A stretch of DNA of 64,000 bases from Hemibagrus wyckioides. Taxonomy: Eukaryota > Chordata > Actinopteri > Siluriformes > Bagridae. Under the pieces are notes generated by a model. That model was not told the origin of the DNA and searched no databases. It was given only the letters and a program-made list of their open reading frames with translations. A program made the translations under genes and the position numbers. Positions 1-63,600 of this stretch are shown here, in pieces. The stretch is from NCBI RefSeq assembly GCF_019097595.1, contig NC_080710.1, forward strand, positions 13,786,280-13,850,279, written 5' to 3'. Within the stretch, counting starts at the first letter, position 1. Each line of letters begins with the position of its first letter.

Positions 1-1036
1 AATTTCCTCGCTCCTAAATATTCCACAGTCAACTGTCAGCTGTATTATAAGAACATGGAAGTGTTTGGGAACGACAGCAACTCAGCCACGAAGTGGTAGG
101 CCACGTAAACTGACGGAGCGGGGTCAGCGGATGCTGAGGCGCATAGTGCGAAGAGGTCGCCAACTTTCTGCAGAATCAATCGCTACAGACCTCCAAACTT
201 CACGTGGCCTTCAGATTAGCTCAAGAACAGTGCGCAGAGAGCTTCATGGAATGGGTTTCCATGGCCGAGCAGCTGCATCCAAGCCATACATCACCAAGTG
301 CAATGCAAAGCGTCGGATGCAGTGGTGTAAAGCACGCCGCCACTGGACTCTAGAGCAGTGGAGACGCGTTTTCTGGAGTGACGAATCGCGCTTCTCCATC
401 TGGCAATCTGATGGACGAGTCTGGGTTTGGCGGTTGCCAGGAGAACGGTACTTGTCTGACTGCATTGTGCCAAGTGTAAAGTTTGGTGGAGGGGGGATTA
501 TGGTGTGGGGTTGTTTTTCAGGAGCTGGGCTTGGCCCCTTAGTTCCAGTGAAAGGAACTCTGAATGCTTCAGCATACCAAGACATTTTGGACAATTCCAT
601 GCTCCCAACTTTGTGGGAACAGTTTGGAGCTGGCCCCTTCCTCTTCCAACATGACTGTGCACCAGTGCACAAAGCAAGGTCCATAAAGACATGGATGACA
701 GAGTCTGGTGTGGATGAACTTGACTGGCCTGCACAGAGTCCTGACCTCAACCCGATAGAACACCTTTGGGATGAATTAGAGCGGAGACTGAGAGCCAGGC
801 CTTCTCGTCCAACATCAGTGTGTGACTTCACAAATGCGCTTCTGGAAGAATGGTCAAAAATTCCCATAAACACACTCCTAAACCTTGTGGACAGCCTTCC
901 CAGAAGAGTTGAAGCTGTTATAGCTGCAAAGGGTGGAACGACGTCATATTGAACCCTATGGATTAGGAATGGGATGTCACTTAAGTTCATATGCGAGTCA
1001 AGGCAGGTGAGCGAATACTTTTGGCAATATAGTGTA
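1..1036 (+). mobile_element. Tc1-type DNA transposon, 5' end cut by the window
   Basis: The right end is visible: a terminal repeat at about 1005-1034 (GCGAATACTTTTGGCAATAT then AGTG) followed by TA at 1035-1036, the expected target dinucleotide. This TIR sequence is common in fish Tc1 elements. The left TIR and the first part of the transposase lie outside the window. The element sits upstream of the first visible MS4A exon, in what is probably an intron of that gene, in the same orientation. Confidence 0.93.
2..952 (+). CDS. Tc1-type transposase (DD34E), N-terminus outside window
   Basis: The frame is open from the first bases of the window, so the coding region begins upstream; the TTG near position 65 is not a real start. 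The first 20 or so visible residues form the second half of a helix-turn-helix ([13 protein letters not shown]), followed by the GRPRK hook and a second DNA-binding helix region. The catalytic triad is present: Asp in WSDESRFS, Asp in QHDCAPVHK and Glu in [12 protein letters not shown], with 34 residues between the second Asp and the Glu. The protein ends in the usual [12 protein letters not shown] region. About 316 residues are visible with no stop or frameshift, so the copy is young or recently active compared with the other Tc1 relics here. It would act in the nucleus to cut and paste its own element at TA sites. Confidence 0.93.
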
Positions 1037-13069: not shown

Positions 13070-16000
13070 ATGGAGAAAGTACGTAGAATCTTGGTGCATT
13101 TATCCAAAGAAAGCGCAGCTCCACACCGAGCCCAGTTTGTTCAGGTCAGTTCAACAAGAGCTGCTGTCAGTGTCAGTGCTTATACACTTGTACAAATAGT
13201 TTGACTGGTGTTTTTATATTCCTAGAGCATTACTGGCCATTTTATTGGGCAACTGGACGACCAAACAACGGTGAATTGTTCCTTGGAAAACAACCGATTT
13301 TTGTTGTTTGAAGGAAGCCAAGAGAGGGGCGTGCCTCTTAAGGTTAGACGTCAACAAGCGTTATGTCATTGCTGAGTACATCATTATTATCGTCATTCGA
13401 GCCGTTAATCATTAATCATCCAATTAAAAAATGTTTTCAGGGTTGCACGTTAAATGATTTATTAGACAGCATAGCGAAAACAGTTCCTACCGTAAGATTT
13501 TGACATTACTGATCAGTATGGTAGTATGCAGTTCTTTTATTTTGCCTCCTGTGGATGAAACTCACTTTCTGCCTCTAGAGGGCGCCGTTCTGCCCAATCA
13601 AATTGCTCTCTCCCTCAGAGGCGGAGTCGATTCCTCCAGACACTCTCCGGAGAGGGGTGGATGTGGGCGTGGCCATACTGCTCCAGTCAGCCAATCAGAG
13701 GCTGTTGCTGACCAGGCGCGCTCAGGCCCTGCGGATTTTTCCTAATGTGTGGGTCCCACCTGGTGAGTATGATGGTGCTGAGACTGCAGAGTGTTTTTTT
13801 CCCCTACGTGTTACACTAAACTGCAGCTTTAGGAAAGAACAAATGGAATATCCTCTTTGTTCAGTCTCATGCTTTTTATAAACTTTATAAGCTAAACTGT
13901 AATTTGCAATCCTTGGACCAACAGGGCTGAGTGTCACTTATTGCACAGATGCTTAATATCTCTTAATACCTAAAGAGCCATTATGCATGGACATTATTAG
14001 TGACTAAATGTTGTTCTCATATTCTGCAGGTGGCCATGTGGAACTGGATGAAAAGGTATAGTTTGAATTACAGCCAACTAGAGCATCATTGGCACCCTTT
14101 AGTAAAATGGTTATTTAGTATTTGAATATATTGATTTTTCGACAAGCAAAGAACATAAAGGTCATAGTTTTAACATTCAGTAAAAGATTTTTATAAATTA
14201 AATTTTAACACTAAAAAAGTTGAGGTTGTCAGGCTTAAAAAATCAACCATTAAATCAGTCACAGTATCAAGCTATGTGCATGAAAAAATTCCTTCATGTG
14301 AACAACCCAGGAAATTCAGTGCTCCTTGAATCGTTTGTCACGGTCAGACCGAAAGTGAACTTTGTTACAGTATTTTATGTACAGCATTGTGTTTAGTGTA
14401 TATGTGGGCTGCACCCGAAGAGAAGCACTTGATACTCATCCCATTGTAAAACAGGGTAGTAGATTATTGATTTGTTTGGGCTGTTCTGTGGCTGGTGGTG
14501 CAGAGGCTCATGAATTTTTTTTTTTTTGCACCAGTGTATTTTAGCACCAAACCTTGTTGCTTCTGCCAGAGAGTTAAAACTATTATTACTCTTGCTAGTG
14601 GATTTTTCAATGCTGGGTGATATGACAATATAATATTGATATTCTAATAAATTATGTTACTAAATCAAATTACTCACTCTAAGCTGTTATTTAAAACATT
14701 AAAATGTGATTTTTAAGTGTTAAATATTTTGTACAATACATTTATGCTTGTTATTTTAAATATAAAAATATTAAATATCGCAGGCAGTTTGTGACCTGTG
14801 TATTGTGATACATATTGTGCATCCTTGACTTGCCTTTGAGAATTGTAATATGGCCACCATTTTTACCATGACAGTGACCTCAAACATACAAAAAAAAAAG
14901 AACATTAAAAATTGCTTGCTTGGAGGAGTGAACCAAGATCCAACTCCAGTCTAGATCTTTAATAGGTATTTCATGACCAGGGCAGGTGTCACAAAATATA
15001 TAAAGGGTGTTGATCAATTTGAAACCAGTGTTTTGCGTGGCTTTTTTGGGTAAAAAAAAAAAAAAAAAACAACCTATGCACCTATATGTTCTTAAAAAAC
15101 TTATTGCCTATGTTAATCATGCTTGTGCATTTTCTCAAAGAGTGTCAAATATTTTCGAACTAACAGGACACATCAAAACCATTTCTGTTTTTGGTTTCTA
15201 ATGTTTAACCAACCTTTATAAATGCATTACTTGTGCAGATTAACCAGAGGCCCATCAATCAAATGAAGATCAGACATCCTTTGGCATTAAATATATCCTC
15301 TTTCTTTTCACTTCTTTTGCATTAGCTGTTGGATGCAGGCCTGCGGGAGCTGAGGGAGGAAACTGGACTCAAACTAGACCCTGAGGATGTCTCCTCCTCT
15401 CAGCTGCTAGGCCTCTGGGAGGTGAGCTCAAAGTGCTGATGTGTAGACACACTGGGCCAAACCAAATGGTCTCTAGGTTTGCAGCACAGAATAAAAATCA
15501 ACTTCATAAAATGTTTGAAAAATATTAATGTTGCAAAAGGCTACCATGAAACCAGGGATCATTACTGTTGAAAATTCTTCAGATTTTAGGCTTTGTATCT
15601 TTTTTCTAACTTTTTTTTCTTTTTTCTAAGTTTTTCTAATGCTTTTTAATCTATTCAGTAGATAATAGCCAATGTGGTCATTTTCACTTGGGGATTTACC
15701 TATAAAGAAAAGCTTTACAATAAGACTCTTCTCACATCCTGACTCTTTCACAGTCTGTATACCCACCCATGCTGTCCCGAGGACTGCCCCAAAGACATCA
15801 CATTGTCACCTACATGCTGCTTTGCAGTAGGCAGACACACCTGCACCTACAAGTAATGCCAGTCTACATCATCTCATCTCAGCTCTATGCAGCAAAAATG
15901 CCATTTAACTCCTAATGAAAGAAAGATGTAACTGGATTGTATGTGTGTGTCATTATTATCTATGAACCTGTCTCTTCTTTTCTTATTAGTCCTATATAAA

Positions 16001-18048: not shown

Positions 18049-18054
18049 TTTATT
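18049..18054 (-). terminator. Possible polyadenylation signal of the muc1-like gene
   Basis: AATAAA on the minus strand (TTTATT on plus) about 520 bases past the proposed stop codon of the muc1-like gene. Other candidates exist nearby, so this is only a likely choice. Confidence 0.4.
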
Positions 18055-18570: not shown

Positions 18571-21500
18571 TTACATGGTGCCTCTTTGATCGCTGGTCTG
18601 GTAGGTGGAAGGTACAACATGGGAGCTCACTGGCACCTGAATGTTGCTGCTGAGTAGTGGTGAGTAAATTATTCCGTGGCTTTCACTGTTTAATTCAAAA
18701 GTTGTACCACTTGACTTTAAGCCCTGGGCGTTCACTTGTTCATTGTGTACATTCCAGTCCAGTTTTTAGGAGGTCTCGCTGAGGCTGAATCCTGTTAATT
18801 AAGATTCTGTTAGAGTATTAGTATGTGTGCTTATTGAATTCTCTTATATTTGCAACAATTTCAGTAACTTTTTGTCATAGTTTCATAGTTCTCTGAATTA
18901 AGTTTGAGTGAGTAAATAAAGGGCAAAACTCTTTCTCTGGGAGCTGCTGTGTGTGAGTTTGTTGTAGTCTGGACAGCATGCAGGCTTATTTATGGCCTAT
19001 CAATGGCCTCTTTGTGCGGGGGAAATGGAGCAACAGTCTTCACTGACTTCAAACAGAATCCCAGCATAATCATTTAATATCATTTAATGAAATTAATCAA
19101 TTTCATTTTAATATCATATGAGTAAATAAATATTCTTTAATCAATTTATTTAATGAATATGTAGCAAATATGTAAGAAGCATCTATATCGTTGTCTATAC
19201 CACATCCCTCCAGCTTCATGGCTGTTTCTAATCTCTTTGGGCAAAAATGATAGTGATAGTGTGAGGTATGAGGTCAGTTATATAGCATTTATAAACATTA
19301 GACTATAGAAAATCCTCATTGATGAAAACAACTGTGCAATTGTGTCTTAAATGATACTGATGTGTGTTTGTGTGTGTGTGTGTGTGTATGTGAGTGAAGG
19401 CAGTGTTCTTTCTATGTGTGGATGAAGACAGTGCAGTGTGAGGTCTGATAAAGCGTTAGCTCCAGGGCAGTTGGGGGAAAGAGAAACACAGAGCAGGAGT
19501 AGAGTTTCCCACGCCTCAGGTTTCCCTGTCAAAGCTGGCTGGGTACAAAGGAAGCCCTATACAGGTGGGAGGGAAGTGGGACTGGGGGCTGTTTAGTAAC
19601 TGCAGCCAGTTTTGCCTGGATGAACATTGTGATGGGGATGCATGGGGAGTCCCTGCAAGAGTGTGTTGTTACTTCCATATCTCTACATCTGATTGCCAAA
19701 GGATATGTATGTAGGAAATGTAGTGGTGCATATATTATAGAGTGTGAATGTGTGTGACTAAAGGAGGTGCTGAGTAATCTGGATCACAGTTTCAGATTCC
19801 AAAAGTCAACTGTGGTCAGAGTTGTATACATTTGGAAGCATGAAGCATTTTTTTGATAACATTTTTTATGTCACTGAATCTGAGTCTTTATTTTGAGTTA
19901 GTCTCTCATTTTAGTGTGGTCATAAGTGACATAATATGACTTATATAGAGCCAGTAGTGACTGGTGATACCAGTTTACTTTCACTCAGTACTCAGGACTC
20001 TTAAAAGGAACATTATCTTTGCCTTTTATCTTTTTTGCCAGTATGTAAAAAATGTTATTAATACTTTGTGGTCACACTAAGGACACTAAGGACACCCACA
20101 ATATAGTAAAACTCTTAGTTTCCCCAAAAAGGTTTTGATTGGTGTGCTCTAGTTAAAGTGTGTTAAGTGTGTAAAACCAAAAATTAGATGGAGGTATAGA
20201 TGGAGATTCACTCACCAGTGACTTGCCGTTGTGTGAGTCATACGTGCTGTGAGTGGAGTACATAGGAATGTCGGGGTTATAATAGCCCATTGGGTCTGGA
20301 TCAGACACATTCATGAAGCCACGCTGTTTCCACCAACAGCACCAAAACAGCAGCTGTGAGGAGGAGCATGCTTTATTTTACGTTTCAGCAAAACAATGAC
20401 ACAACAACCATGTTCCATTCACAGCAAGAGCACATCAGCGTGAACAACAGACTTGTTGCACCCAAGAGACATCAAGAATTCAGTGCAGAAATTCAGTGCA
20501 GAAATTTCACAATAGCTTCACTATGTAACAATATATTTATGGAATAGAAAAGAAGAAACATAATTGTTAATTGTTATTTAAATGTTACATAAATGTTATT
20601 GTATGATACAGCTTAGGTATTTTTGAATGGTTTGATTGGTAGTCTATTTAAGGCTCACCAGCAGTATGAGGAGGACAAGCATGAAGAATAGTATAATAGC
20701 CGCCAGCACGAGGATGGCAATGCCCCAACCAGGCACACCCTGCTCTGTTTCCACTGTGTGTGATCCTTCAGGTTCTGTGGGATTTTGTGTTACAGTTTTA
20801 CCCACACTTTCTGATGAACTGGAAGCAGACATGGTTGATATGTTGCTGCTTGGATGTACTGTCGTGGTTGAAGAACTGGAAGCAGACATGGTTGATATGT
20901 TGCTGCTTGGATGTACTGTTGTGGTTGAAGATCTGGTAGTAGACATGGTTGATCTGTTGCTGCTTGGATGTACTGTTGTGGTTGAAGATCTGGTAGTAGA
21001 CATGGTTGATCTGTTGCTGCTTGGATGTACTGTCGTGGTTGAAGACCTGGTAGCAGATATGGTTGATCTGTTGCTGCTTGGATGTACTGTTGTGGTTGAA
21101 GAACTGGTAGCAGACATGGTTGATATGTTGCTGCTCGGACGTACTGTCATGGTTGAAGAACTGGCAGGAAAGATGGTTGAAAGACTGGTATCAGTGGTGG
21201 ATGAGACGAAGGCGCTTGAAAGCACTTCCATACTTCTGCTGTCTGAAGTAGTCTGAGAAGTAGAATTGGTGAAGCCATGGCTATGAGTGGTAGAATAAGT
21301 TTGTGGGGGTGTGGTTGAGGAATTATCATCTATTGATTTGCTTTGGCCACTGGAGGTTGAGGCTGAAGTTGTAGAAATTGCAGACTTTTCATTTCCATCT
21401 TGATGGTGTTCAGTGCTGGTGGGGGATGTAGTCATAGCGGTGGTAGAATCAGAAATGTTTGTCAAGAAAGGGAGTTGGACAGGAATGGGTTCCTGATCTG

Positions 21501-22934
21501 GAAGGGGAAGACAGAGTCATATTGATAGTTAAGGATTTACAATCATGCATTACTATGTAATGTGTTTATAATCTATAGTGTAATATTCTTTTGAGAAACA
21601 ATACGAGGGATGTTTTACCTGCGGTATAGTTGATGTTTAGGTCCAGCGTCAAAAGCGAGTGGTGGTGTTCATAATTGTTAACAAACACCTGCTTTACCTT
21701 CTCTCCACTTTCCTGCTTAGTACCAAATATCACTGTGGAATTGGCAATCACAGATCCATTGCTGAGGAAAATAAAATTTACACATTATAAAAGGACTAAA
21801 GCAGATTTACGCCAGACCAAAACTTACAAAAACAAGCCATCTTTTTTGTTTAATCTACTTTAATATTGTACTTCAAATTTATTATTTATAAAGTATTTAC
21901 TGTTTAACCTTTTTATTTACCTGAAAGTCATCTCTGCAATCTTTTGATACTCTACTGCTGATGTAAAGTTATAGATCTCAGAAAACTGAAAAAAATGGGG
22001 AAAATTAAGATGTTTATGAAAAAAAATGTATATTACTAATAATGTCAGACTACTAGTCAGTTACATTCTTTGAGTGTATGATTACTCATTAATGAAGTTT
22101 TTTGGGGTTACTCTGTGTCTTTCTTTCTGTCTGAGAAAAATAAGACCTCTTACCACATTCTCAACCTCCCGTCGTAGTACTTTATAGCTCTGTGAGTGGT
22201 GGTCCTCAAGAGATTCATTGTAAATCTGATTAGTTATTTTTATGCTAATCATAAAGGCAGAGAATTCATATGAAATTTTTGTGCCAACTTCAGGTGCTGC
22301 TGTGGTATCGCCAGCGGTAATAACACCTGCACAATCAAAGCCAAGAAAATATTTACTCAAGATAATCAGCTATCGGTCAAATGGTCAAACATTCTTATTT
22401 CAACATATAATGAGATAAAGACATAAAAGTTATGCTGCATTGTCTTTATATTAAGAAATTTTCATTCAAAATGTGGGACAACTGGAGTGTAGATACAAAA
22501 TGTGTGACAATGACACGAGAATATTTTACAAAAATGAAATAATCTCCTTCAAAATAAATAAATAAATAAAATAATACTGTAATATATATTAATGCAGTAC
22601 TTATATATTACTTATTATATATATATATATAAATTACATTGTATTCATTCCATACATGTTTTCTAGTGGTCCTTGAGGAAAATAAAATCTAAGCATTATA
22701 TACTTTTTATAGAAAAGATTGCCAAGTAAATTTGTATGATGACTTCTTAAGAAGAACATTTAATGAAATTCAGTTATTCACAGCTTTGACAAAGAAAAAA
22801 ATGTTGCTCATAATTGTAAAAATATTGCAAATTGATCTCCTCGTTTCATCTTTATTTCTGTACATCAAAGAATATTTTAACACCTTACCTGACCAAAGTA
22901 CTAGGAGCCCAATAATCCAATAAAGATTCATCAT
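18571..22934 (-). CDS. muc1-like: MUC1-like transmembrane mucin, order SP-SEA-mucin repeats-TM-tail
   Basis: Seven minus-strand exons: 22934-22889, 22326-22154, 21985-21921, 21761-21619, 21497-20659, 20353-20216 and 18636-18571. All phases agree and total 1470 nt (489 residues). Residues 1-16 are a signal peptide (MMNLYWIIGLLVLWSG). Residues 28-145 form a SEA domain: YNESLED, SYKVLRREVENVFSEIY, then FSNGSVIANSTVIF, where G97-S98 sits at the SEA self-cleavage position. Residues 145-390 are Ser/Thr-rich with six 19-residue repeats. GVPGWGIAILVLA (396-408) opens the membrane helix and closely resembles MUC1's GVPGWGIALLVL. It is followed by LLFWCCWWKQR, with a cysteine pair where MUC1 has CQC, and a tail of about 60 residues with four spaced Tyr sites (GYYNP, MYST, TYDS, TYQT). 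Mammalian MUC1 carries its repeats before SEA; here they follow it. The last exon is the least certain. The neighbours mtx1, thbs3 and mir-92b support MUC1 orthology. Confidence 0.85.
20816..21157 (-). repeat. 57-bp coding minisatellite (mucin tandem repeat)
   Basis: Six adjacent 57-bp units start at 20816, 20873, 20930, 20987, 21044 and 21101. Each encodes 19 residues on the minus strand of the type SSTTTVHPSSNRSTMSTTR. Every unit keeps VHPSSN or VRPSSN and an N-glycosylation sequon (N-R-S or N-I-S) as well as about ten Ser/Thr for O-glycans. The inner units are nearly identical, and the unit at 21101 is the most diverged. The same stretch is also open on the plus strand, which is a by-product of the repeat. 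Confidence 0.95.
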
Positions 22935-23692
22935 TTCTCTGATGATTACGCACATTAGTGCTAATCCTTCAGCCTGGAAACTCTTCTGCTCAGCTTTTGT
23001 CCGGATAGAAACAGTGCTTTAGATGCAGTGCCTCACTTTGAGAGTGAACAGTCCCTTTATTGTTTGTGCACCTGAGCAGGCATTGGGGTGGGACCCATCT
23101 GCTTAATCAGTGGGCCACATCCATGTGGATACATTAGTCTACACAGGCAGCAAAATGGAACTATGCTTCTGCATGCAAATGATGAAAAAATCATAGATTG
23201 GAATTGAGTGAAAAAAATTTTTTCTGTGACTGTGGAAGATACCTTTATTGTTTAAAGAGTTCATGAAGAGGTTATCAATAAGATAAGATAAGACAAACCT
23301 CCTCAACTAGGTGTTCATCCTGAAATGATGCTCAGTACTGCCCACTAGTGACACATTTTGGAGCTTTATTGAAGATCAGTTAGATGTTACTTTTGAATTG
23401 TAGTTTAAAACGTGTAAAAGATTAACAGATATAGATAAAGGAAAAGCCTCACAGATAGTGATCAGTTGAAACATGTGAACCTATGCAGCACAAGCAAGAT
23501 GTCTTTGTGATATTATTAACAATCAAAGACAGTTATGGAAAATTTGAAAGTAGGTAGCCTCTTTGCGGTTTTTAAATTGAGGTCACGACACATCAGTAGC
23601 TTTGTTGACGAATGAAATGAAGGTAACATGCTATTCTTAGCAGTTTTCATTTTTCTTAAGTATCAGTCGAAGAGGTTAGTCAAGATAACAAG
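22935..23692. other. Divergent intergenic region between muc1-like and the Ig receptor
   Basis: About 760 bases separate the two start codons, which point away from each other. It must hold both 5'UTRs and promoters, and possibly shared control elements. I see no clear TATA box or CpG island, and nothing else annotatable. Confidence 0.55.
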
Positions 23693-25613
23693 ATGCTTTA
23701 CAGCTTCTTTCTGATTTTTCTAATTCAGCTTATATGTACTGGTAAGACAAAAAAATTAAGATATGTTAAAAAAAAAAAAAAAAAAATTTTGTTTTACTTT
23801 TTTTCTTTTGTGTTATAGGTGGGAATCTGGTCTTCCAGTCTTCCAGTCTGACTGTGGATGTTGGTACAAATGTCACATTAATTTGTGATATTGCAACTGC
23901 ATTTGGTCAATGCTCCTCTGTCAGATGGCTGCTGTACCAACAAGAAACTGGCCTTAAGATCTACATCTCAGGCATCAGGACCATTACCAGAAAAGCCCAG
24001 CAAGACACACTATGTACAATGCAAATTTCCAGAGTCTGTCCTTCAGATAACGGCACTTATTATTGTTTACTGTTAAATGAAGGTGTGGATTTTATGGGCA
24101 ATGGAACAGAGCTGACAGTCATGGGTAAACATCCTTAAGCTATACTCATTTAAAATGAAATGTATGTACTGTATGTATTCTGGTCTCGAGCGTGTATTGT
24201 GTTTGAAGTCATGTTTTGTTTTACAGCTCCAGATATATCCAGCAAGCAGAAGGTGAATACTCATGACCTCAAGACAGATTTACAACAAGGTATTATTTTT
24301 TTAGTTTTTTGATTGTTATTGTTACAGAATTAAACCTTATTTTGTTAATAGGAGTTTGTTCAATTTTATTGAAGTTTTACATTTTGTTCATTAGTTTCAG
24401 TGTAAATAATTGGGAAGTTTTTTGTCGACAAGATTTATAATAACTTATTCAAGTAGCTCATTCATTTATCATAACTCATAACAACTCACTTATAATTTTA
24501 TTCAAAGGTAGAGTTTTTGAGTACTGCTAACTGAGAAACTCTCTCTGTGTTACATATTGGCTATGATTAAATTATCTCTATCATCTATAAACAGTCTTTT
24601 TAACCCTTTAATGTCCAAAGCAATAGAAAAAATTCTTACTTTGCATTATTTATTTAATTCGGTCAATAATAACAACAATATATAACTGGTTTTTTTTAAC
24701 AGACCCCATAATTATTTAAATATAGGCCTCTATACCAAATGGCTGCCTAATCGGCTTGGGTTAAGTTAAAAAAAATTTGTTAATGAAATATAGTGACTCT
24801 ACCAAACCGGTTTTATTGCAGTGCAGGAACATCAGTGTTTAGTCCCTGTGGCTGTTGTGGGAGGAATCTCACTTCTGATCATCTTGGGAATTTTAGCCGT
24901 GATTACCTGCCACAGAAGAGGTATATAATGAATATGCAATGTAAATATCTGTTATATCTGCGATATGATATCCCAGGATATGATAACGGTAGTCTTTAAA
25001 TAATGAGCCAACTAAATATATTGTATATATCATGCAAAAATGTTTACATTAAAAATGTATATTCAGTTATGAAATCTAGAAATATATGTTTATAATATGC
25101 AATATACTGATGCAATATTTTTAAAATGAGGTGATTGTTTTCTTCAGCTGTTTTGATGCATCCGAGAGGCAATAATGTATCACGGCAACATCAACAAGTA
25201 AGAATAAAAAAGAATCAGCTATAACAATGTCTTTTTACAGAGCCAGAGAAGTAACAGCTACACAAACTGAATTATGATAGAATTTACTTCTGGTCATTCA
25301 GCACAACATTTTGAATAAATTATTATATAAATTTTATTATGTGTATAATAATTATAATAATTATATTATGTGGCTGTTTTTGAGAGATAATGAAGAACAA
25401 GATCTAGGGTTAGCCCATGGCTTGTCATTTAATGTACCTTTGAGGACAAAAATACAGAAATGCTTCCCTGGCTCTGCTAATTTTTTTTATTTTACTTTCA
25501 TAGAAATATTTTTTTAATGTGTCTGTAATTATTCTCCACAGTCCTCCGGTGAGACCCAGTATGCTAGCCTGATGTTTGTAACCGGGAGACGTAACCATGT
25601 TGCAAAATCCTGA
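23693..25613 (+). CDS. V-set immunoglobulin receptor with tyrosine motif
   Basis: Six exons: 23693-23741, 23819-24124, 24227-24289, 24822-24920, 25148-25197 and 25542-25613. They give 212 residues with consistent phases (internal phase-1 joins typical of Ig exons). Residues 1-17 are a signal peptide (MLYSFFLIFLIQLICTG). Exon 2 is one V-set domain: B-strand Cys in VTLICDI, Trp in SVRWLLYQQ, F-strand DNGTYYC and a J-like NGTELTV end. Three extra cysteines (FGQC, TLC, RVC) suggest additional disulfides. A short stalk is followed by a TM helix (PVAVVGGISLLIILGILAVI) and a 40-residue tail with ETQYASLMF, an ITIM/ITSM-like site at Tyr196. The form suggests a type I leukocyte receptor, perhaps inhibitory, like the many single-V fish receptors. 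No orthologue can be named. Confidence 0.85.
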
Positions 25614-25923: not shown

Positions 25924-27306
25924 ATATATAGGACAGGCAATCTCTAGGACTTGAATTGTGAAGCAGTGCTGCAGATGTGCTCATTTACAACCCATCTAGT
26001 GTCATGATTTGCTGTAATCTGCAAAAACATTTCTGCACTCACGGGAAGTATATGACAAATACTTATACAAACTTTATGATTATTCTAAGATAATTATACT
26101 CATTATTTAAATTAGGCTCAGTATTACAATATTGAACCCATAGAGTTCTTTTTAATTCCTGAGCCTATTCAGTTAAACCAATTTAAATCAAGAGACCAGT
26201 AAATCAAGCTAATAACTATAAGGAACTTAATAATAAATACAATAACTTCAATAAAGGTGCTGTGTAGTTACCACCATTGTAACAAAAGTAGAAAATCATG
26301 GACTCCTGGATATGCTTCACATACCCCTATGGGTTCCTAAACCCCACTTTGAGAACTATTGGCATGTACAATATGACTTGAGTCAAGTTTTGGGCCTGCA
26401 ATAATTATTTGGCTTTGGGCAGGAAATCAAGAGCTATGCTGGATGCTGGCCATTTTTTGTCAAGATACAGTCTATCAGCCAGGCACCCACTAGAAGGCAG
26501 CAGATTTTCCTTCATAGATAGGCCAGCGTACATTGTCTCTAGAGTAGAGTTACATTTTGGCTAGCTTTGATCTGTGATTTTGCTTTTTTGTAATTGTCTT
26601 TTTTTGAACTGCCATTTTGGGGTTTTTGTTTGGCCTCTATTAAAAAGACAAGAACACAAAGTGTTTGTGAACGTGTTTTATTTGTCAAGACAGAATTACA
26701 GTTTAGACGTCAAAATGATCAAGATCAAATGAGTTTTTCAAAAACAACCGCAGAAACATAGAGATCTTTCTGTCCTCCAAAAGAATAAACAGAATATCCC
26801 TTTATCTCTGAACACAGCATGTGATGTCATGTGTTGTGAATGTTCTGGCCCACATCTTGCCAGCGGCAAAGTTCAACTGTTGCGACACAGATTCAAATTA
26901 ATGTCCAGCTTAGGGTCCCTCTGCATCTATAAAACAGTATCCTCATGTATGACACCATAATATGCCTAAATTGTTTTCAGATTTTGGTATACTAATACTT
27001 AGCAACATATAAGACATCATCTACTAGCATCTTGGCTAGAGAATTCTAGTTTTATCCAACAAAAATAAATTGCATATGAAACAAGGCAGTTGGGCAAATG
27101 TGTTATTTATAAATGCATTTTTATTGTTGTATCGTGGCATGTTTCATGCAGTAACTGTGTTTAATTCTGTTAAACTTTTTTAAAAACTCTGAATGCAGAT
27201 GAGACTTTTCATAAGAACTACGTGCAGATCTCCAGTCATTAATTCATAAATAATTCATTAATTCTTTCCTCATCATCAATAACCTGTTCTGGTCAGGTAG
27301 ACCATT

Positions 27307-27914: not shown

Positions 27915-27925
27915 AAGATGGCGGC
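27915..27925 (+). promoter_or_regulatory. YY1-type motif over the mtx1 start codon
   Basis: AAGATGGCGGC includes the mtx1 ATG. This is the well-known extended YY1 site that in many housekeeping genes lies just downstream of the transcription start and supplies the start codon. It suggests a short 5'UTR and TATA-less transcription. Confidence 0.6.
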
Positions 27926-30900
27926 TCCCATAGAGTTGTTTTGCTGGAAAGGGAGTTGGGGTTTACCTTCTGTTGATACTGACAGTCTGATTGTGTTGGT
28001 AAGCCTTGATATTGTTTTATTCTGTACTATAACCGGATTTACCTTCAATCAGCATGCGTTTATTCTTTTTAAGATCCAACTTCATTTAGGTATTGTGTTA
28101 CCTGTTAGCACTGACTGAGTGTTAATCATTTTAACTTCTATTGCATTAAGGTTGTCTAAAAGCACACACACAAGCCCTGATATCTGCCAGCACCTCTGAC
28201 ATTATGTATGCAGTAAGTTTGTAGTTTGTAGTTTGTAGCAAACGCACGAAACAGCTGGAAGCTATAATAAAAACAATGATCCTGCAAGACGGAATTTGTA
28301 TCGCGAAAGGTAACAGGTCTGTTTATGTGGAGTGCTTTTATAAGGACAAAAAAAATCCCATACCATAATGTTTGTTAATATTCTAATGCTTAGGAGAAAC
28401 CCACCGTATTCGAAAATGTGCTACTCTTTGCACAACAAACAATTATTTGTGATCTAGGAATTAGACAGTTATGATAAATCTCTAAATATCCCATTGTAAT
28501 TTATTAAGCTATACACCAATCAGCCATAACATTATGACCACCTGCCTAATATTGTGTTGGTTCCCCTGGTCTGCGGCTATGTGCAACAAACTGTGATGCA
28601 CTGTGTATTCTGACACCTTTCTATCAGAACCAGCATTAACTTCTTCAGCAAATTGAGCAACAGTGGCTCATCTGTCGGACCGGATCACACGGGTCAGCCT
28701 TTACACCCTAGGAGCATCAATGAGCCTTGACCGCCCATGTTCCTTCCCGGTTCACCACTGTTCCTTCCTTGGATCACTTTTGATAGATACTGACCACTGC
28801 AGACCGGGAACACCCCACAAGAGCTGCAGTTTTGGAGATGCTCTGATCCAGTCGTCTAGCCATCACAATTTGTCCCATGTCAAACTCGCTCAAATCCTTA
28901 CGCTTGCCCATTTTTCCGGCTTCTAACACATCAACTTTGAGGACAAAATGTTCACTGCCTAATATATCCCACCCACTAATAGGTGCCTTGATGAGGAGAA
29001 AATCAGTGTTATTCACTTCACCTCTCACTGCTCATAATGTTATGGCTGATCGGTGTACAGTTTCACTCATAATAATAATCCAGCTGTGTATTTTTGTATG
29101 TCTCTGGTTTAAGTCGTATTGGCTCTGAAGTCTGTCCTAAGCACACTAGGCATGAGGCAGGAATGCATACCTGTATGTACACATTGTAGATGATTGAATC
29201 CCATACATGTACACCTCCTTCATAACAACTACAGCTAAGAAAAACAAATTTCACGCTTTCAGATTTTTCCAGTTTTATTTATGTAGGAACATGGAGACTT
29301 CCACAGCAGGATGCACGGGCGAGTGTTTTTATGACTCCTCTAGCAGCTGGTTTGGGTTTAAATACTGGTTGAAATAAAAGTTTAACTGTTGCATTAATCC
29401 AGAGTTAAGAACAGGACTTTGATGGCTAAGCTTGAAATCAGGAAAATATAAGAGAGGGATTTGGGAAGCAGCAATGCACATACATTTTGATACAAATTTA
29501 TCGTAGATTTTAAATATCACACAGACTTTACTGCAGCTCAGTCATTTATGACTAGGATAATGCAAATGATGAAAAATTGCTTGCACCTTATTATAATAGC
29601 AAACATCTATATCAACCAGTTAATAGAGGGATCATGCATAGACGAAAGTATTTCTCATTCCACAGTTTCAGTTTCGTGATGTTTCAGTTCTTTTCTAGTT
29701 TAACACAGTTTGCACATGCTAAATCGCTGTCTGATACAAAGTACTGATATTCTGAAACTTGATCTAACTTCAGCAGTGTACTAGATTGTTTATTATTTAC
29801 CCTTTGTGTTCTACAAATTTCTTCAAATTTCAACCATACAGTTTGCATTATGGGTAGTTAATGGTAGTCCTGGTGTGATGCATTTCTGAAGAAAGTTCTT
29901 TGAACAGCTAACCAGATAGCTAGATTGTTGTTGGTAAGAAACAGTATTCTGACTAATCTGTGCTATCTGCAAATTTTAAACAAATTTTTATTAGAAGGTT
30001 CAATTAGCTAGGTAGTGGTAGCCTTGTAGCATGCTGCATCACGATACAAAAACTGGATAAAAATGATGCATATACTGCAGTTGCACTGTTTGCACACCAG
30101 AGGTCCCATCCTGTGCGTTCCATAGATTTAAAATATATAGAGAGCACACTGGTCATGTGATTGTGTCTTTCATGGAGAGTTTGCACCATTACTAAAACAG
30201 GAATCATCTGCACTTCAGACAGGCAATCCAGACCACATTATAACCATAAAAGAGATGCTGGTCCAGCGGCAGGATCCCGTGCTCTCCCTGCTATGACCCA
30301 GGTTTGATTCCCAGGTTTCCCCACAGCCACTGAGGGGTTAACTCTCAGTGCCAGTCCCAAGCACAGATAAAATGGGAGAGTTGCGTCAGGAAGGGCATCC
30401 GGTGTAAGACTTGCTAAATCAAAATATGTGGATCAGATGCTCCGCTTTGGTGATCCTGAACAGGGAGCAGCCGAAGGATAAAAACATAACCATAAAAGAG
30501 ATCTTCAGTAGCTTTCAACTGACTCCAGCTCTGTGAGCTATTATGCTCAAGAAGAATGTCATCCAATTTTAGCCAGTTTTGGAGCTCTATTTCTCAGACG
30601 CTGCTACAAAGATCATTATGTTTTAATCGATCATTTTCCCTGGTCAGAGACTTTATATAACTTATTATACATGACCCCAGTATCTCGAATCAAATCATGA
30701 CAAGCGTGTATCATTACACTCCTAGTGTACATACTCTGCTAGTATAAAACAGAAGATACCTGAATCATTTATAAGCACTTCCTCATGCCAGAAGGACATG
30801 TCAGAAGGACCAGGCTTCTAAGATTGACAAATTCTGGGGTTCTGGCTTGATATTTCCCCACTGAATGCTTTGTGTTGTTGATATTTGAGCTGTAATATTC

Positions 30901-33900
30901 ACTGTGACCCTTTTTAAGGATTGGTATATACTTTCGATTCCTAAGAAGTTTCCTTCCTCATACAGTGCTGTTGTGCTCGGTTAAGAATAATGCTTGTTTT
31001 GGGAGAAAAAAGAGATAATTACTTGATAATTACACATGATAATGCAGCTATCAAAATTTGGATTGCAATTGGCTGATATTTGTATTGTTTTAGTGCACTG
31101 TGTTTTTAATTTTCTAAATAAAACCATGAACAGCATGATGTCTCTTCTGTGGCTTTAGGGCTTCTTCTATAACTTATCATGGAAAGACTTTCTTCACTTT
31201 CTTACTTTTCCACTCTGTCTCAGCCTCACCAGGAAATCCCTGTCCATATCTCAGCAACACCATAGTAGCCACATGGAATTAATTTCCGTTGTTTCAGGAT
31301 CCCCCACTTTTTTTTTTAACTTTCAAATCATGTGGCTTACTTGCAGGAGGCGGCTTCAGAAGAACTTTCCTCTACTTGGTGGTTGGGAAAATGCCTGTGG
31401 CAGTTTTTCCCCTGTGTAGTAGGGTCTGTAACTACAGGCTGATTCGTGACACATCAGTGTACTCTCACTCAGACTGTCTGGAAAATTATAGCCCAGTTCC
31501 ATTCAGTTTTCCACATGATTTCTGGCTTGTTCTTGCAATGAATAAACTAACAGTATGAAGGAGGCAGCCGAAGAGCAAACGTTCACGTGCACTCTAGTGA
31601 TCTGCGTATAAGAGAATTCCATGAAAATAAATTCATCCCAGGCTATATTAATCCTGTACAAGTTTTTAGTGAGCTGCCATTTTGAAAACGATCTTAACTG
31701 TACAGCCTGTCTTGATCACTTTCATTTAGGGTTCAGTGGTGTCCAGTTTCAGTTTCATTATTTTATTTTATGATCTTATTTTAAGAGACTCCACATTACA
31801 CCCAGTGCTAAACCATAGATTCATTCAATATGCATGATTTGCTTTCAGAGCTCAATCATACAGTTTATACTGTGGTGAAATTGCAGCTGAGCATAGTTTA
31901 TAGCAGAAAGTCCATTTGGAATGGTGCTTATGGCATTTTTATACGAACTGGTGCTGTGTTGTAAACTAAACTGTCAGCAGAAGCAGTTTGGCCTGCAGCA
32001 ACTTTCCTGTTCGTGTTTCTGTTGGACAGCACAGGGGCATTCATGTCTCTGGTTTTACGACATACAGTTTAAAATTTGCTGAGGAATTCTCCAATAATCT
32101 GAAGGCATGATGTCAGTCTTTGTGGGTAATGGTGGCTATATCGCACCGGGTCTGTTTCTGTTTCCACTGCTCTGCCCGCTTTGGCAGTAATTCTGAACCG
32201 CACAGTGACAGTAAAGACACTTAGATTTCATTTGACTTCTAATTTCTGAATTATAAAACTGCAAAAAGATGGAAAGTTCCAGAACTTTATAGAAGAATAC
32301 GTGTATACAATCTCGACTAGCATGAAACCTCCTGGACTTTCTGACAGTGTTTTACAGAACGGCCATTTAAAACTATTCTTAACTTTTTCACTGGATGATT
32401 TGCGTTTTTATTCGTTCAGAAATGTAAAAGTGTTTTTTTATGTGAGGTTGATTGTGTTCTGTCATTAAAAACAATGCTGACAGCTAAATCTCAAACTTTC
32501 AAATACAGCATTTGTTGTTCAAAGATTTTTGTTGCTTTATTAGATATCTAGCCTATTTATAAGCCTTTAGTGCTCTAGACTCCAGGGAGGTTTTACTGTC
32601 ACAATGATCTTGCAGTAAAATTTTATTACCACTTGAAATGAAATAAAAGGCAGTAATTTTTACATTCTGTTTGTGGTTGTACTAGATATGTAATTTCACC
32701 ACCACTTGACTTTTTTTTGTGGGTCTCCTGGCATGCTGCTTTTTCCTTCGTCCATTCTCTTTGTAATTCCTGAAACAGCTTTTTTTTTTTTTTAAAGAGA
32801 AAAAAAGGATCTCAAGACCTGCAGACATTGTGGAAGAAATTTAGCAGTGTTTTCCATGACGTTCTCCTCTCCTCTCTCCTTCTCTCTGTCTCTTTCTCTC
32901 TAGCTCTCGCTCTCATTCACCCGCCCTTTATGCAAGAAGGTCTACGTGACTCTCCTGTCTACATTGAAATATAAATGCCCTGCAGCAAAAATGTCACATT
33001 GATCCAAGTGTTTTTTATGGTTCCCCACAAATGTATATGTCACCCAAACTATTCTCTAGCTATATAGAATACTAGTGTTGTTTCTGTCTTAATAGAATTC
33101 CACTGTGAGTATTCTTCACACCCTTGTCAATTATTGCAAGCATTTGCCGGGATATAAATAATAGGAAGCTTTATTCGCTGTAATTAATGATGTATTAAAA
33201 TGTTTGCCATTAAGTAGTTAATAGCAGAGTTCTGTGGCTGTAACGTCTTCATCAGGAATTAAACTGCAAGTTCAAGCTTGGTCCACATGCGGTTGAGTGG
33301 ATGTTTTCTTTTCAGCCAGAGGAGGTGTGAACTGCTTCCTTTCTCAAGATAAAATAAGCAGAGCTTGGCTTCCTGTCTTCCTCTACGAAGTCTGTTCAAC
33401 CAAAAATCGTGATCGCACTAAATCACGACCTCACTCTGCTGTGTTATCAGGAATATCCCTATAATGTCATTGAACTGTTACCTAATTCTAAAGCTGTGAT
33501 TGACACTTGTGTAAGACACTGCATCTCTGTCTTTCTCCTCAGTAAAAGCTCCTTTAGCATTGCGCTGGATGTGTACACTTTTTCTCAACTAGGCTCAGTA
33601 CCTGCAGGTTTATGTGCTGAACTGTTGAACTGCTTAACATCCTGTCCTAAATTTTCTGCACTTAAAAATAAGGCTGCCAGTGGAAAAGTGTTTTGAAATA
33701 GTTATTTGTCTGTGTCTGGCTTGTATGCGAAGGCTGTTATTATTTATAGTTTATGATATTCATTAGGTTTTGAAGCTTTATAGTTTGCTATATCCAACTC
33801 TTGAGGAAGACACACTGTTTGTTTTGGGGTTGTTTTATGTCTTGGCTGTGTTTACTGTCCACAGATGTCTTGTAGGGTGTGTAGAGAGTGTTAATGCTTT

Positions 33901-36900
33901 CTGTGTCTGCAGGTCCATTGGCGCTTTTCCAGTCTGGCCTGGTTATAATTTGATTAAATGTGCAATTAACATAGATCTTTTCCAGGCTCAATCATGGACG
34001 GCTTTGCCAAAATAATGACTGGACAGTTGTTTGCTTATTGCAGCATTTACACTTTTACCTCAGTAGCAAGTTTGTGTTCAGCTACTCCTTCTAAATCACT
34101 TAACTACATTACAAAACGTTCTTCTGTGAGTTGCATGGAAAAACATTCCTCCTGAAGATGCTGCTAAGTTTCCAGATGTCACTAATGCTGCTTTAAGAAG
34201 TGCATGGATTATGGATTATAAATGGATTAAAACAAAACAAAAAAAAAAGCCTGGTGGGTCTTATCCATTGGTGGTTTTCTTTTCCTAAAGCTTTGTCCAC
34301 ACATGCATCGATTTTTATGATGTCAACAGTAGGCCTTCCTAATAGTTGTTGCCATGGTAATAATGTTCATCATTGCAGAAGAAGAAGCCTTTATTTTTCA
34401 CATATACATTAAAACACAGTGGAATTCTGGGGCTTGAACCACCAACCTTCTGATCAACAACCCAGAGTTTTGGGTGGGGTTAATAGCATTTCACAGTAAA
34501 AATCAGTTTTCTTGTCGCTAAAATGAAACATTCTGTAGGGAGATTTGGTGTTTGTATATAAAATTCACCAGTGTATATAAGCATCATGTCATACAAGATG
34601 AAGGAGTAGCAGTGTGAGCTTTTTGCCACATGCACTCTACTGTCTTCCATTTACTTCTTCACTGCAGCAGGTTGCTCCATATGTGTGCAAATTTCTCTCA
34701 GCTTTATTGCCTCACTGGAGACAACCACATTGAAAGCTCTCATTGAAAATGGAATGTTCTCCGTTCACTTTGTTGCCACGAGTTGTATGTGTGAGTTGTA
34801 ACATGGCATAAGACAGCAAATTCTGCCCATAAAGTTCTAACTAGTTGATGAGAGTGCGTTAAATGAGCTACATGCTTACCTCTGCAGTTTCGTGCAGCTC
34901 TACTCTGGCTTACAGCAAGAGTATTACTCATAACGTTGTTGGCTTCTAAACTGATGTTTTATTCTTCCAGGCATATGCTCGATTTGCTGGAACCCCACTG
35001 AAAGTTCACAAGATCTCCAACCCCTGGAGGAGTCCCACAGGTAGGCAGATTTTTTTTTTAATGTTTTTCCATGGGATTTTAATGGTTGTTTTCTGGCCAG
35101 CCATGCATCATTAATGTAAGTATTTGCTTTTAGGCTGATCAAGTTACCTCAAATTGCAGAAAGTGACTAAGCCGCTATTTCCAGAAAACTGACACTGATC
35201 TGCACTGGATCTTGTGTCAGAAGACATCGACATAGCAGCTTAGTGCTCACTGTATCCTGTACAACACAAGCTTTATGTTCCTGCCTCAGCATTACTCTTC
35301 TGCCATGATAAGCTTTTTCTTTAGATGCATGAGTAGCATTCGTACTGTTTATAAGTTACTGCAATCTGTGGTACTCTAGTATATAATACTAGAAAACAAT
35401 TGTACTAATGTTACATCTTTTAAATCTATAAGTAACATAGAAACACTGAGCAGCGTTTGAATAAGAATTGTCATAGGATATGAAGAAGAATCAGTGTGTT
35501 TCTTTGCCAAATATCAACTGTCTTCACCCCTGTTGGTAGTCACAGCACCAGGTCACTTCATATTTGCATAAGGTTCAACTTTTCTCAACTTTGTTGCATA
35601 ACTGGGCATATCCACTTTGTCACCAATGCTTACTTTCACTCAAAATATTATATTATTCATCACATTAGCCTTAAAATAATGTGAGGAGAATATTGTAGCA
35701 GGTGTATTGACGGACTGATCTGTGTGTTTGGGCTGTATGCTCCCAGGTTCACTCCCTGCTCTGAAGACCAAAGAGGATGGGAGCTTCTCTCAACCCAGCA
35801 AGATTATCATCCAGCTCAGGAAACAGGTAGCTCACTGACTTTGACTCATCAGCCACAGCTTTTGGCCCATTTTAGCTTGGCTAACATGTAAGTTCCAAAC
35901 AAATGCACTAAACTGTAATACATTTAGACAGTTTCAGAGTCACTGTGGATTGTGGACAGAAACTCTATCAGAAAGTCTCCTATATTCCCATTAAAATTAG
36001 CCAAACCATTATAGGGGGATATTTGCTTTACTTTCTGACATTTGGCACATGCTATGACCTTTTTATCTCATTGCCATGAACCAGTTGCTTGTTACACTGC
36101 AATGTTAATAAAATTGAAAAAAAAAAAAAAAAGTAAATTGAAAAAAAATGAAAATGGGAAATATGTCAGTGTACAATTACACTGCAGTCTGTGCGAATTT
36201 TCAAATCTGATTGGTCAGTAGGTGTACAAGGTAAACAAATGTAATTGTTTTAATAAATTATTTCTATAGTTACAACTCATTTACAGGGATTTGTATAGTG
36301 GACATCTATGATTTAATGATCTAAGGCTAATAATTAACAGATTATAAAACATCTTGTTATTAAACAAATAACTTGTGATATGGTGAAACTGTATGTGAAG
36401 AGAGGGGAAGTTTTCTGATGTAGGGGAGTCTTTTGCACTTTCTGGTTTCTGGGTATCAAGACTAGCTTCATTTTTGATTTCCAAACTTAAAAAGTAAGAG
36501 GAAAAAACTGATGCTGCTGTGGGAATGATTGTTTATAGATGCGATGATACAAGTGAAAACAGGAACTAACATGTCTTGTGGACATTCCACAGCATTAAAT
36601 GTAACTTCATATGTTAAAAAGTATGTGGTGTCATTTATCAATAAATGAATTGTAAAAATTGCTGTGATGTATCATATTTCTCACTTTGCCTGTTCTAACT
36701 TTCTGCTTTATTTTGTATTACGATAACTCTGATCATATCTCGGTATGGTCCTCATGTTGAAACCTGAATCTCTGCTAATGTGCGGGAAAACTGTGTTGTT
36801 TATTTCAGAAATACAATGCAGACTACGACCTTTCTGCGAAAGAAGGGGCCGACGCACTCGCTTTCATCTCTCTGTTGGAAGAAAAGCTGATGCCTGCTCT

Positions 36901-39900
36901 GGTAAGATTCACATGAGGAGTACAGAAGCTCGTTTGCAGAGATACATGATCCAGTCCTGTTAGTGATATAAATGATAAGAAAGGTGGACTGGTGTTCCCT
37001 GGAAGTTGAAAGGGGGCCAATATTATATAACAATATCTTTTTCATTACTTCTCATTACATGCTGTTTATCTTAACAAGCTCGCTCTCCTGCTATAATTTC
37101 TCCTATGATTCATTAATAGGTAAACAGTGACTGGGTTATTATCTCTGCTATTTAGTAGCTGCTGTATAACAATTCCTGACAGTTTCCTCTCAGTTGGAGC
37201 CAGTGAAGCTGGAGTTAGACCATTTTTAACTCTTCCATCACTCGAATTGCTGTTATGAAGGGAAATCCATAGGAAGCTTATGTTATTAACCACAGAGATA
37301 ATGTTACTATACTGTTATTTATCATTATACAAATATTTATTATTATTATACTAATATATTGACTTTTACAAGGAATGATCTCCACTCACACATCTCTGTA
37401 AATGTCATTTTCTTCGTTCTGTTCCATGGTTGTCTATTGTGCACACTCTTGCAGATTTATGCTCTGTGGGTTGACCCTAAGAACTATGCTGAGGTGACAC
37501 GTCGCTGGTATGCAGAGAACATCTCCTTTCCACTGAACTTTTTCCTGCCGAGCCGCATGCAGGGCCAGCAGCTGGAGAGAGTGAGACTCATGTGGGGAAA
37601 CAGCACTCTGGAGGCCGGCGAGGAGGCTGAAAAAGAGGTGCACAGGCATGGAATTATGGGTTAAAGTGGGACAGATTGTAGCAATCTAAAGCCCAGGTGT
37701 CCATACTTGCAGCTGGGGATTGACCCTGCAGCCAATTTTGTTTCCACGGCTAATATAATAACATAATCCAACCAAACAGAATCTTGATGATCATCAGAAT
37801 ATTACAGGCAGAGGTGTTGAGAGACGTACTGCTGCTCTGCGTACCACAGATTCTTTTTATATGCACACACGCACGCACACACACACACACATACACACTT
37901 TTAGACACCTGCAAGTTTGATTTATTTTATCATGATGTCACAGACATAGTAATTGTGTTTTTTCCCCCAAAGACAAAAAAAAACCTCCCTTTTTCTTTTT
38001 CTCTTTGAAGCTATATGCCGATGCTCTGGAGTGCATGAATCTTCTCTCTCAGCGCCTCGGCTCAAACAGATTTTTCTTCGGGGACTCGTAAGTTACTCAA
38101 CACACAAAGGCTTAAATTAGACCTTTCGAAAATGGATTTGAAGAAGCTTCCCTCCTTCTTTGTCTCACAGCACTAGTTCCTAAAGTGATGACTACTTTAT
38201 TTGTAAGCCAGTAAATCTGTTAAATAGTGAGTCTGCACAGCTTCTTCTTCTAAGGCCCTATTTGTTAAGGAGGCACTGAAGCAAATTTATCTCCAGACCT
38301 GAAGAAAAAGATATGACTTCTAGTTAACTTGTATGATGTCATCAGTAGGAATGGGTTAGGCAAGCTCTAAAAGCTCAGAGGATGTGAAAGACATCAGAGG
38401 CAGATATAAATTTGTACAAGTTATTAGATCATATTTATATCACATTCAGAAAAGGAAATACAGGTCTTCGAACTGAACTGAACTTTTTTTTTTCCCCTCT
38501 TAAATTCCATTTCTCTGTATGGAAAGTTTTGCACATAAATCTATTTTGTGGATTTGTGTTAAATGTATTTTAGCTAGTTTTTAAGAAAACATATTTCTTC
38601 TGCACATGTTTTAAGATTTTGAAGAATTCCATCATCACATATTTAAAGTACCAGAGTATGCACTCACTGAGCGCTTTATTAGGAACACTGCACTAATACT
38701 GGGTAGAGTTTCCCTTTTTGGCATGGATTCCTCAAGATCATGGAAACACTTCTTTGAGCTTCTGGTCCACGTTGACATGATTACATCACACAGTTGCTGC
38801 AGATTATTCAGGTGCACTTTCATGCAGCAAATTTCCTGTTCTGCCACATCCACAACGTGTTCTATTCTGCTGACTGGGAGAACACTTAACTCATTGTCAC
38901 ATTCCTGAAGGCAGTTTGAAGGACTTTTGCTTTGTGAGATTGATTTGTATGAACAGGCGCAAAGTGTGCCAAGAAAACATTCCTCACACCATTATACCAC
39001 TCTACCATCTGTGTCCAGTTTTGGGGAGTCTGTGCCCACTACAGCCTCAGGTTTCTGTTCTAACAGAAGTGGAACCTGACATGGTCTTCTGCTCTTGTAG
39101 CCCATCCTCCTCATGCTTTTCTGCTCACCTCAGTTGTACACATTGTTTATCTGAGTTACGGTAGCCTTTCTGGCAGCTCAAACCACTATGGCTAATCTAT
39201 GTTGACCTCTCTTATCAACATGGTGTGTTTGTCTGGTGTGTGGTGTGTGTCTGCAGAACTGCCTCCCACTGAATTTTTAATTTTTTTTTTTATATTGAAT
39301 GGAGTAAATTTTAGAGATGTGCATGTAAAATACTTAAACCTGCCACATCAGTGCTCTCTGGGGCTATTGTAGAATTGCTTTGACGATCTATGAAGAACAG
39401 GCTATAAAAAGCTCACTTTAAGATCTACCCTCCAGGCCCTCCTCCCTTGATGCCTATGTGTTTGGTCATTTGGCACCTCTACTAAAGATCAGGCTGCCCA
39501 GCAGCAGACTACAGCAGCAACTGAAGGCTCTGGACAACCTGACCAAATTCTGCTCTAACATTCTCTCCCTCTACTTCCCTGATGAGAGTCAAGGTGAGCT
39601 ATCAGTCACTATTGGGAGAATCGTATTTGCTACAGACGAACTAATAACATCCTGCCTCTGAGGTATAAAAATTCTTTGTTGTTTGAGATTAAGATGAGAT
39701 GAAGTGGTGTACTGTTATCATGTATGGTTTGGTGCCTTGTGCCCAGTGTTATCAGGATCAGCTCCAAAATTAACGTGACCCAGCTCAGGATGAAGCGGTT
39801 ACTGGAGACAAATAAATAAACATGATTTAATCCCTTATTTATTTGTGAACAGAAGGAAGGAGTCAGCCGACATCCCGTGTGCAGGAAGGGAGTGACTTTG

Positions 39901-41127: not shown

Positions 41128-42513
41128 TATAGTACCTTGCAAAAGTATTCATACACTTTGAGCTTTTCCACATTTTGTCACGTTACAACCACAAACGTAA
41201 ATATATTTTATTGGGATAGACAAACACAAAGTGGTATATAATTCTGAACTGAAAGGAAAATAATAAATGGTTTTAAAGATTTTTGACAAATAAAATCTGA
41301 AAACCTAATTAGTTAATAGAGACTGTGTGTAATCTCAGTATAAATACAGCTGTACTTTAAAGCCCTCAGAGGTTTGTTAGAGAACATTAGTGAACAAACA
41401 CCATCATGAAGCCAATGGAACACACCAGACAGCTCAGGGATTTTAGTTTAAAGCAGGGTTAGTTTATAAAAAAATATCCCAAGCTTTGAGCATCTCACCG
41501 TGCACTGTTCAATCCATCAGCCGAAAATGGAAAGAGTATGGCACAACTGGCAAACCTACCAAGACATGGCTGTCCACCTAAACTGACAGGCCAGGCAAGG
41601 ACAGCATTAATCAGAGAAGCAGCCAAGAGACCCAGGGTAACTCTCAAGGAGCTGCAGAGATCCACAGCTCAGGTGGGAGAATCTGTCCACAGGACAACTT
41701 TTAGTCATGCACTCCACAAATCTGGCCTTTATGGAAGAGTGGCAGAAAGAAAGCTATAAGAAGTCCAGTTTGCAGTTTGTGACAAGCCATGTGGGGAACA
41801 CAGCAAACATGTGGAAGAAGGTGCTCTGGTCAGACGAGACCAAATTTGACATTTTTTGCCTGAATGCAAAATGCTATGTGTGGCGGAAAACTAACACTAC
41901 ACATTACCCTGAACACACCATTCCCCCCATGAATTATGGTGGTGGCAGGGAGAGGGAAGCTGGTCAGAGGTGATGGGAAGATGGATGGAGCCAAATACAG
42001 GGCAATCTTAGAAGAAAACCTGTTTAAGTCTGCAAAAGACTTGAGACTGGGGCGGAGGTTCACCTTCCAGCAGGACAACAACCCAACAGCCAGAGCTACA
42101 TACATATAGCTAGAGCTACAATGGAATGGTTCAGATCAAAGCATATTCATGTGTTAGAATGGCCCAGTCAAAGTCCAGAGAATCTGTGACAAGAATTGAA
42201 AATTGTTTCATCCAATCTGACTGAGCTTGAGCTATTTTGCAAAGAAGAATTTTACTCTCTAGATGGGCAAAGCTGGAAGAGATGTACCCCAAAAGACTTG
42301 CAGCTTTAATTGCAGCAAAAGGTGGTTCTAAAAAGTATTGACTCTGGAGGGCTGAATACAAATGTATGTCACACTTTTTAGATATTTATTTGCAAAAAAA
42401 ATTGAAAACTATTTATCATTTTCCTTCCACTTCACAATTATGTGCCACTTTGTGTTGGACATGACAAAATGTGGAAAAGTTCAAGGGTATGAATACTTTT
42501 GCAAGGCACTGTA
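41128..42513 (+). mobile_element. Degenerate full-length Tc1-type transposon
   Basis: Left end TAGTACCTTGCAAAAGTATT and right end AATACTTTTGCAAGGCACTG are inverted repeats bordered by TA (41128-41129 and 42512-42513). Longer internal copies of the TIR (CTTTTCCACATTTTGTCACG and its complement) are also seen. The transposase is broken into several frames: PPKLTGQARTALIREAAKRP and HALHKSGLYGRVAERK, then WKKVLWSDETKFDIF, then a frameshifted remainder with a decayed QQDNNP motif and PSQSPEN where SPDLNPIE is expected. It cannot make an active enzyme. Confidence 0.9.
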
Positions 42514-48554: not shown

Positions 48555-62402
<13,848 letters not shown>

Positions 62403-63519: not shown

Positions 63520-63600
63520 GCGCTCCAGGAGGCCGGGACGAGTGCAATATTGGCGGGAAATCTTACAACAATGCACCGCGTCCCGCACCTGCCGGCCGGC
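63520..63600 (-). ncRNA. mir92b: microRNA precursor mir-92b
   Basis: The minus strand reads, 5' to 3', an arm GCAGGTGCGGGACGCGGTGC, a loop beginning ATTGTTGTAAGATTTCCCGC, then the 3p arm. The 3p arm at 63549-63528 begins TATTGCACTCGTCCCGGCCT and ends CC, and is identical to vertebrate miR-92b-3p over all 22 bases as I know it. GGGACG and GTGCA of the 5p arm pair with CGTCCC and TGCAC of the 3p arm, and CCGCCAA before the mature sequence is also as in the human hairpin. miR-92b has the miR-25/92 seed and acts in post-transcriptional repression, for example in neural progenitors. It lies about 1.1 kb past the thbs3 stop on the opposite strand; human MIR92B lies just beyond the 3' end of THBS3, also on the opposite strand. 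Confidence 0.95.

Follow-up and report, generated by a model that had tools for sequence, protein, structure and literature searches.

In human MUC1 the mucin repeats stand ahead of the SEA domain, giving the order mucin-SEA-membrane, and the cytoplasmic tail carries the motifs YEKV and a C-terminal YTNP; in mammals, shedding of MUC1 frees the mucin part. Here we describe a MUC1-like gene on the minus strand of a 64 kb stretch of Hemibagrus wyckioides NC_080710.1 (C1), referred to below as the window. Its relation to MUC1 is well supported at the sequence level, because two separate regions, the SEA domain and the membrane span, point to MUC1, because the gene is linked to THBS3, MTX1 and miR-92b, and because a second linked copy lies on C12 of the same genome. 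Strict orthology to MUC1 is likely. We give a probability of about 80% to the reading that teleosts retained two co-orthologues of MUC1 after genome duplication and that this gene is one of them; on this reading it keeps the MUC1 core of signal peptide, SEA domain, membrane span and short tail, and its repeats grew inside the exon encoding the membrane span. The exon structure, the domain order, the SEA and span matches, the linkage and the second copy can all be read from the genomic DNA, and our analysis suggests that the mucin part may be younger than the core protein. PMC3680472 describes the SEA domain of membrane-bound mucins as typically flanked by the repeats and the span; MUC4, with no SEA at all, is among the exceptions. 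A Fugu "MUC1-like protein" was listed in 2006, marked "?", in Table 1 of PMC1552070.

Rebuilding the gene yielded six exons encoding 468 residues and a seventh encoding 21, 489 residues in all, with GT-AG at all exon borders and compatible phases (1,0,2,1,0,0). The seven-exon model of the first-pass annotation was thus reproduced, exon 7 being its weak part. The features of the gene are as follows (a slash within a motif marks the cut site).

22889..22934, minus strand: exon 1, signal peptide MMNLYWIIGLLVLWS(G), donor GTAAGG, phase 1
22154..22326, minus strand: exon 2, first part of the SEA domain (NQIYNESLEDHHSQSYKVLRREVENV), leaving phase 0
21921..21985, minus strand: exon 3, middle of the SEA domain (FSEIYNFTSAVEYQKIAEMTF), leaving phase 2
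21619..21761, minus strand: exon 4, 143 bases, remainder of the SEA domain starting at the presumed self-cleavage motif NG/SVIA, leaving phase 1
20659..21497, minus strand: exon 5, Ser/Thr-rich mucin domain and membrane span within a single exon
20812..21180, minus strand: 57-bp tandem repeat, 6.5 copies, 19 residues of the SSTTTVHPSSNRSTMSTTR type
20653..20748, minus strand: membrane entry and span matched by the human MUC1 membrane-tail query (E 0.037), the last 6 bases lying past the donor
20216..20353, minus strand: exon 6, LLFWCCWWKQR and the Tyr-rich tail
18571..18636, minus strand: exon 7 as proposed, 21 residues and stop, the least certain part of the model

The acceptor of exon 7 looks poor by eye, and three alternative acceptors (ending 18724, 18715 and 18598) preserve both frame and stop. 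An in-frame ATG at 22955, 21 bases upstream of the modelled start, is a possible start that would add 7 residues, and a candidate polyadenylation signal lies at 18054.

The second MUC1-like gene occupies 11.489-11.492 Mb on the minus strand of C12. It has the same SEA-mucin-membrane order as the window gene, carries GVPGWAIALLVL, shares the phases 0,2,1,0 over the SEA domain and span, and its exon 4 is likewise 143 bases long. Just past it, from about 11493.5 kb (L020), 8451 of 10000 bases are N, a possible gap. The second copy bears on whether the gene model itself could be wrong, such that the SEA exons and the mucin-membrane exons belong to two genes, or that a mucin exon ahead of the SEA domain, as in the true MUC1 order, was missed. 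Although the model was predicted from sequence alone and exon 7 is weak, the phases and the length of exon 4 agree between the copies, no separate signal peptide is evident in exon 5 by eye, and intron 1 of neither copy holds a Ser/Thr/Pro-rich frame (top fractions 0.18 and 0.24, among frames of at least 25 residues on the gene's strand). We therefore regard a faulty model as quite improbable.

As the first-pass annotation had claimed, the protein contains a SEA domain (Pfam, residues 40-123, E 9.7e-10, above the curated cut-off). Of the SEA domains compared, that of MUC1 is the closest. HSPG2 (perlecan) was rejected as the nearest SEA by sequence comparison, MUC1 being closer; an HSPG2 SEA sequence used as query against PDB gave no match. 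The self-cleavage-type motif, NG/SVIA in the window gene and KG/SVIA in the C12 gene, aligns where human MUC1 carries PG/SVVV. The Asn preceding Gly-Ser in the window gene could bear a glycan, hindering the cut. A SEA tree, proposed in the same annotation, was built from 15 rows and 40 columns, confined to the first half of the SEA domain. The rows were the two MUC1-like fish genes, 9 of the 13 other SEA matches in the genome, human MUC1, HSPG2 and TMPRSS11D, and mouse Muc16. Not included were L013 and L014, as copies of L012, and L010 and L011, whose matches are poor or fall in other parts. Both fish genes fall into one group (85/87) with human MUC1 and mouse Muc16, the latter on a long branch, and HSPG2 and TMPRSS11D lie outside it, but the three MUC1 rows stay together in just 26% of 200 bootstrap trees and no branch is starred. 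The tree thus agrees weakly with kinship to MUC1, and neither proves nor disproves orthology. The L012-L014 matches themselves are three SEA exons that lie within about 86 kb on C29, are identical in the residues matched and each follow a Ser/Thr-rich stretch; this trio is likely a tandem mucin cluster.

The span provides the second region of likeness. The rebuilt model contains GVPGWGIAILVL, and its span has the GVPGWGIALLVL entry as in MUC1, the human letters being those given in PMC4534190. The near-identity of this entry to that of MUC1, the CC pair at the inner face and a Tyr-rich tail had all been predicted. They are borne out: the human membrane-tail query matches the span, the CC pair directly follows it, and the tail has several Tyr. 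At the inner face CC stands where MUC1 has CQC, in both fish genes, and in both the SEA domain and the span each match MUC1. Across the whole genome the window gene was the better of two matches to the membrane-tail query, the other, on C26, lying at chance level (E 9.9). A canonical MUC1 elsewhere in the genome was considered and rejected on this result; the C12 gene was itself missed by the query, and the search for MUC1 elsewhere is therefore not exhaustive.

Linkage offers a third line of evidence. The first-pass annotation had placed THBS3, MIR92B and MTX1 in the window, and all three were found.

27918..39658, plus strand: MTX1, 5 exons recognised, the first solely by likeness to a human sequence
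50845..60109, plus strand: THBS3, recognised exons
63528..63549, minus strand: mature miR-92b sequence, 22 of 22 bases

The miR-92b query was the mature sequence. None of 100 shuffles gave a match with 3 or fewer mismatches, the site forms a hairpin with a z of -3.2, equalled by 1 of 200 shuffles, and with one mismatch allowed the sequence occurs only on C1 in the genome. An Rfam search at the gathering score returned nothing, the miR-92b hairpin staying under it. Set against human MTX1 and MTX3, four of the five window exons score higher with MTX1 and the fifth lower. A THBS4/MTX3 block in place of THBS3/MTX1 was rejected on the four exons that favour MTX1 and on a separate THBS-MTX pair on C22, probably THBS4-MTX3 itself.

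On C12, two plus-strand genes follow the MUC1-like gene (minus): a copy of MTX1 at 11.594 Mb and a gene of the THBS family at 11.622-11.633 Mb. MTX1 and the THBS-like gene thus lie on one side of the MUC1-like gene, alike in order and orientation in both blocks, the C12 order being that of the genes located. The N-terminal exons of the C12 THBS gene were not found within 20 kb upstream. Two stretches of it were compared with the window THBS3, the C10 gene being left out: in the first it agrees at 57 of 69 positions, against 47 of 68 for the C22 gene, and in the second at 46 of 59, about equal to the C22 (44) and C18 (46) genes. Three genes that share order and orientation across two chromosomes, in strongly diverged copies, fit the teleost genome duplication, and we infer that the two genes were retained from it. 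The shared order and orientation would also fit a later segmental duplication, in which case the linked copies say nothing of age. We hold this to be the least probable of the alternatives, given that the MTX1 copies are just 65% identical in the compared exon and that the two genes show no evident kinship in their mucin repeats.

The mucin domain differs from that of MUC1. Ser, Thr and Pro make up 59% of 240 residues, with just 12 Pro, and the repeat contains an N-glycan site. Codon differences among the repeats comprise 18 synonymous and 49 other (all pairs of 6 copies). The repeats lie in the exon that also encodes the span.

How far do the differences from MUC1 count against co-orthology? 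Several findings weigh against it. In both fish genes the repeats stand between the SEA domain and the span, and the MUC1-type placement between signal peptide and SEA is found in neither. The tail alone matches that of MUC1 weakly at best and has neither YEKV nor a C-terminal YTNP. The window order is MUC1-like (minus), MTX1 (plus), THBS3 (plus) and miR-92b (minus), the MUC1-like gene lying on the other side of MTX1 than in human 1q22, where we take the order to be TRIM46, MUC1, MIR92B, THBS3, MTX1; linkage is therefore kept and order is not. In the C-terminal exon the C12 THBS gene is 84% identical to the window THBS3, less than C10 (88%) and C22 (87%). Among PDB matches the C12 SEA shows no preference for MUC1, and PGWG followed by a hydrophobic span occurs in PsbH as well (E 0.008). 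These last points, the weak tail match and the wide spread of SEA domains (15 matches listed in this genome) could be taken to mean that the gene encodes another SEA membrane protein, whose likeness to MUC1 goes no further than family traits and a membrane-entry motif that is common. We find this unlikely, since MUC1 is matched separately by SEA and by span, in two genes, and both genes are linked to MTX1 and a THBS-like gene. The fish MUC1 orthologue proposed by the first-pass annotation stands as a relative of MUC1; as a new and plain orthologue it is qualified by the domain order, where the annotation had not remarked that SEA precedes the repeats, by the weak tail, by the gene order and by the earlier Fugu listing cited above.

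If the gene is a MUC1 co-orthologue, its product would be a single-pass glycoprotein, presumably of epithelial surfaces, with a repeat domain probably O-glycosylated and bearing the SEA domain at its tip. SEA would cut itself at the NG/SVIA motif, the two halves remaining associated. The outer piece would then comprise the first SEA part alone, about 80 residues past the signal peptide, with the repeats remaining attached to the membrane piece. Since this places the cut outside the stalk, shedding would free only those roughly 80 residues, and the stalk would remain on the cell. The CC pair may carry lipid, and the tyrosines of the tail may be phosphorylated. Tentatively, and at somewhat less than even odds, we propose that MUC1 originated as a small protein of SEA domain, membrane span and tail before ray-finned fish and tetrapods diverged, that mucin was gained more than once in different exons (by teleosts in the exon of the membrane span, by mammals between signal peptide and SEA), and that self-cleavage in fish spares the stalk. 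If so, MUC1 goes far back in vertebrates and did not arise late in mammals, the SEA-membrane core is its conserved part and the mucin part is replaceable, its signalling and self-cleavage roles are separable from its barrier role, and fish offer a model in which the cut leaves the stalk unreleased.

Other features surround these genes. A small V-set immunoglobulin gene adjoins the MUC1-like gene at 23692-24925 on the plus strand (Pfam V-set, 1.9e-9; membrane span by eye), and a distant V-set relative adjoins the C12 THBS gene (L035 7551-7847, E 1.6e-5). A mir-459-like Rfam match at 26740-26821 (minus; 29.8 against a gathering score of 62 bits) may be chance. At 13579-13878 (plus) lies a possible NUDT17-like exon (Pfam NUDIX, E 0.018, under cut-off). 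Some 14 kb beyond the right end of the window on C1 (L022 3838-5413, plus), frames by eye resemble an arrestin-domain gene of the TXNIP kind. A short fragment of TRIM46, a poor test, found no match at E 0.01 in the flanks examined. A Tc1-like transposase copy occupies 41490-41970 (plus; Pfam HTH_Tnp_Tc3_2 for 41490-41756), with further copies by eye at 2-949 (plus) and in L021 at 1058-2236.

The literature examined on fish and mucin evolution, the main mucin surveys not among it, yielded no fish MUC1 with SEA ahead of the repeats. The Fugu protein is also from a fish and is likened to MUC1 in its listing. The other SEA mucin-like genes, the three copies on C29, also combine SEA with Ser/Thr-rich repeats. 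Human MUC1 has in common with the fish gene a SEA domain with the GSV cut motif, the GVPGWGIA(L/I)LVL entry, Cys at the inner face and linkage to THBS3, MTX1 and miR-92b. It differs in that the fish repeats, themselves different, lie between SEA and the membrane and not before SEA, in that the tails are weakly alike, and in gene order.
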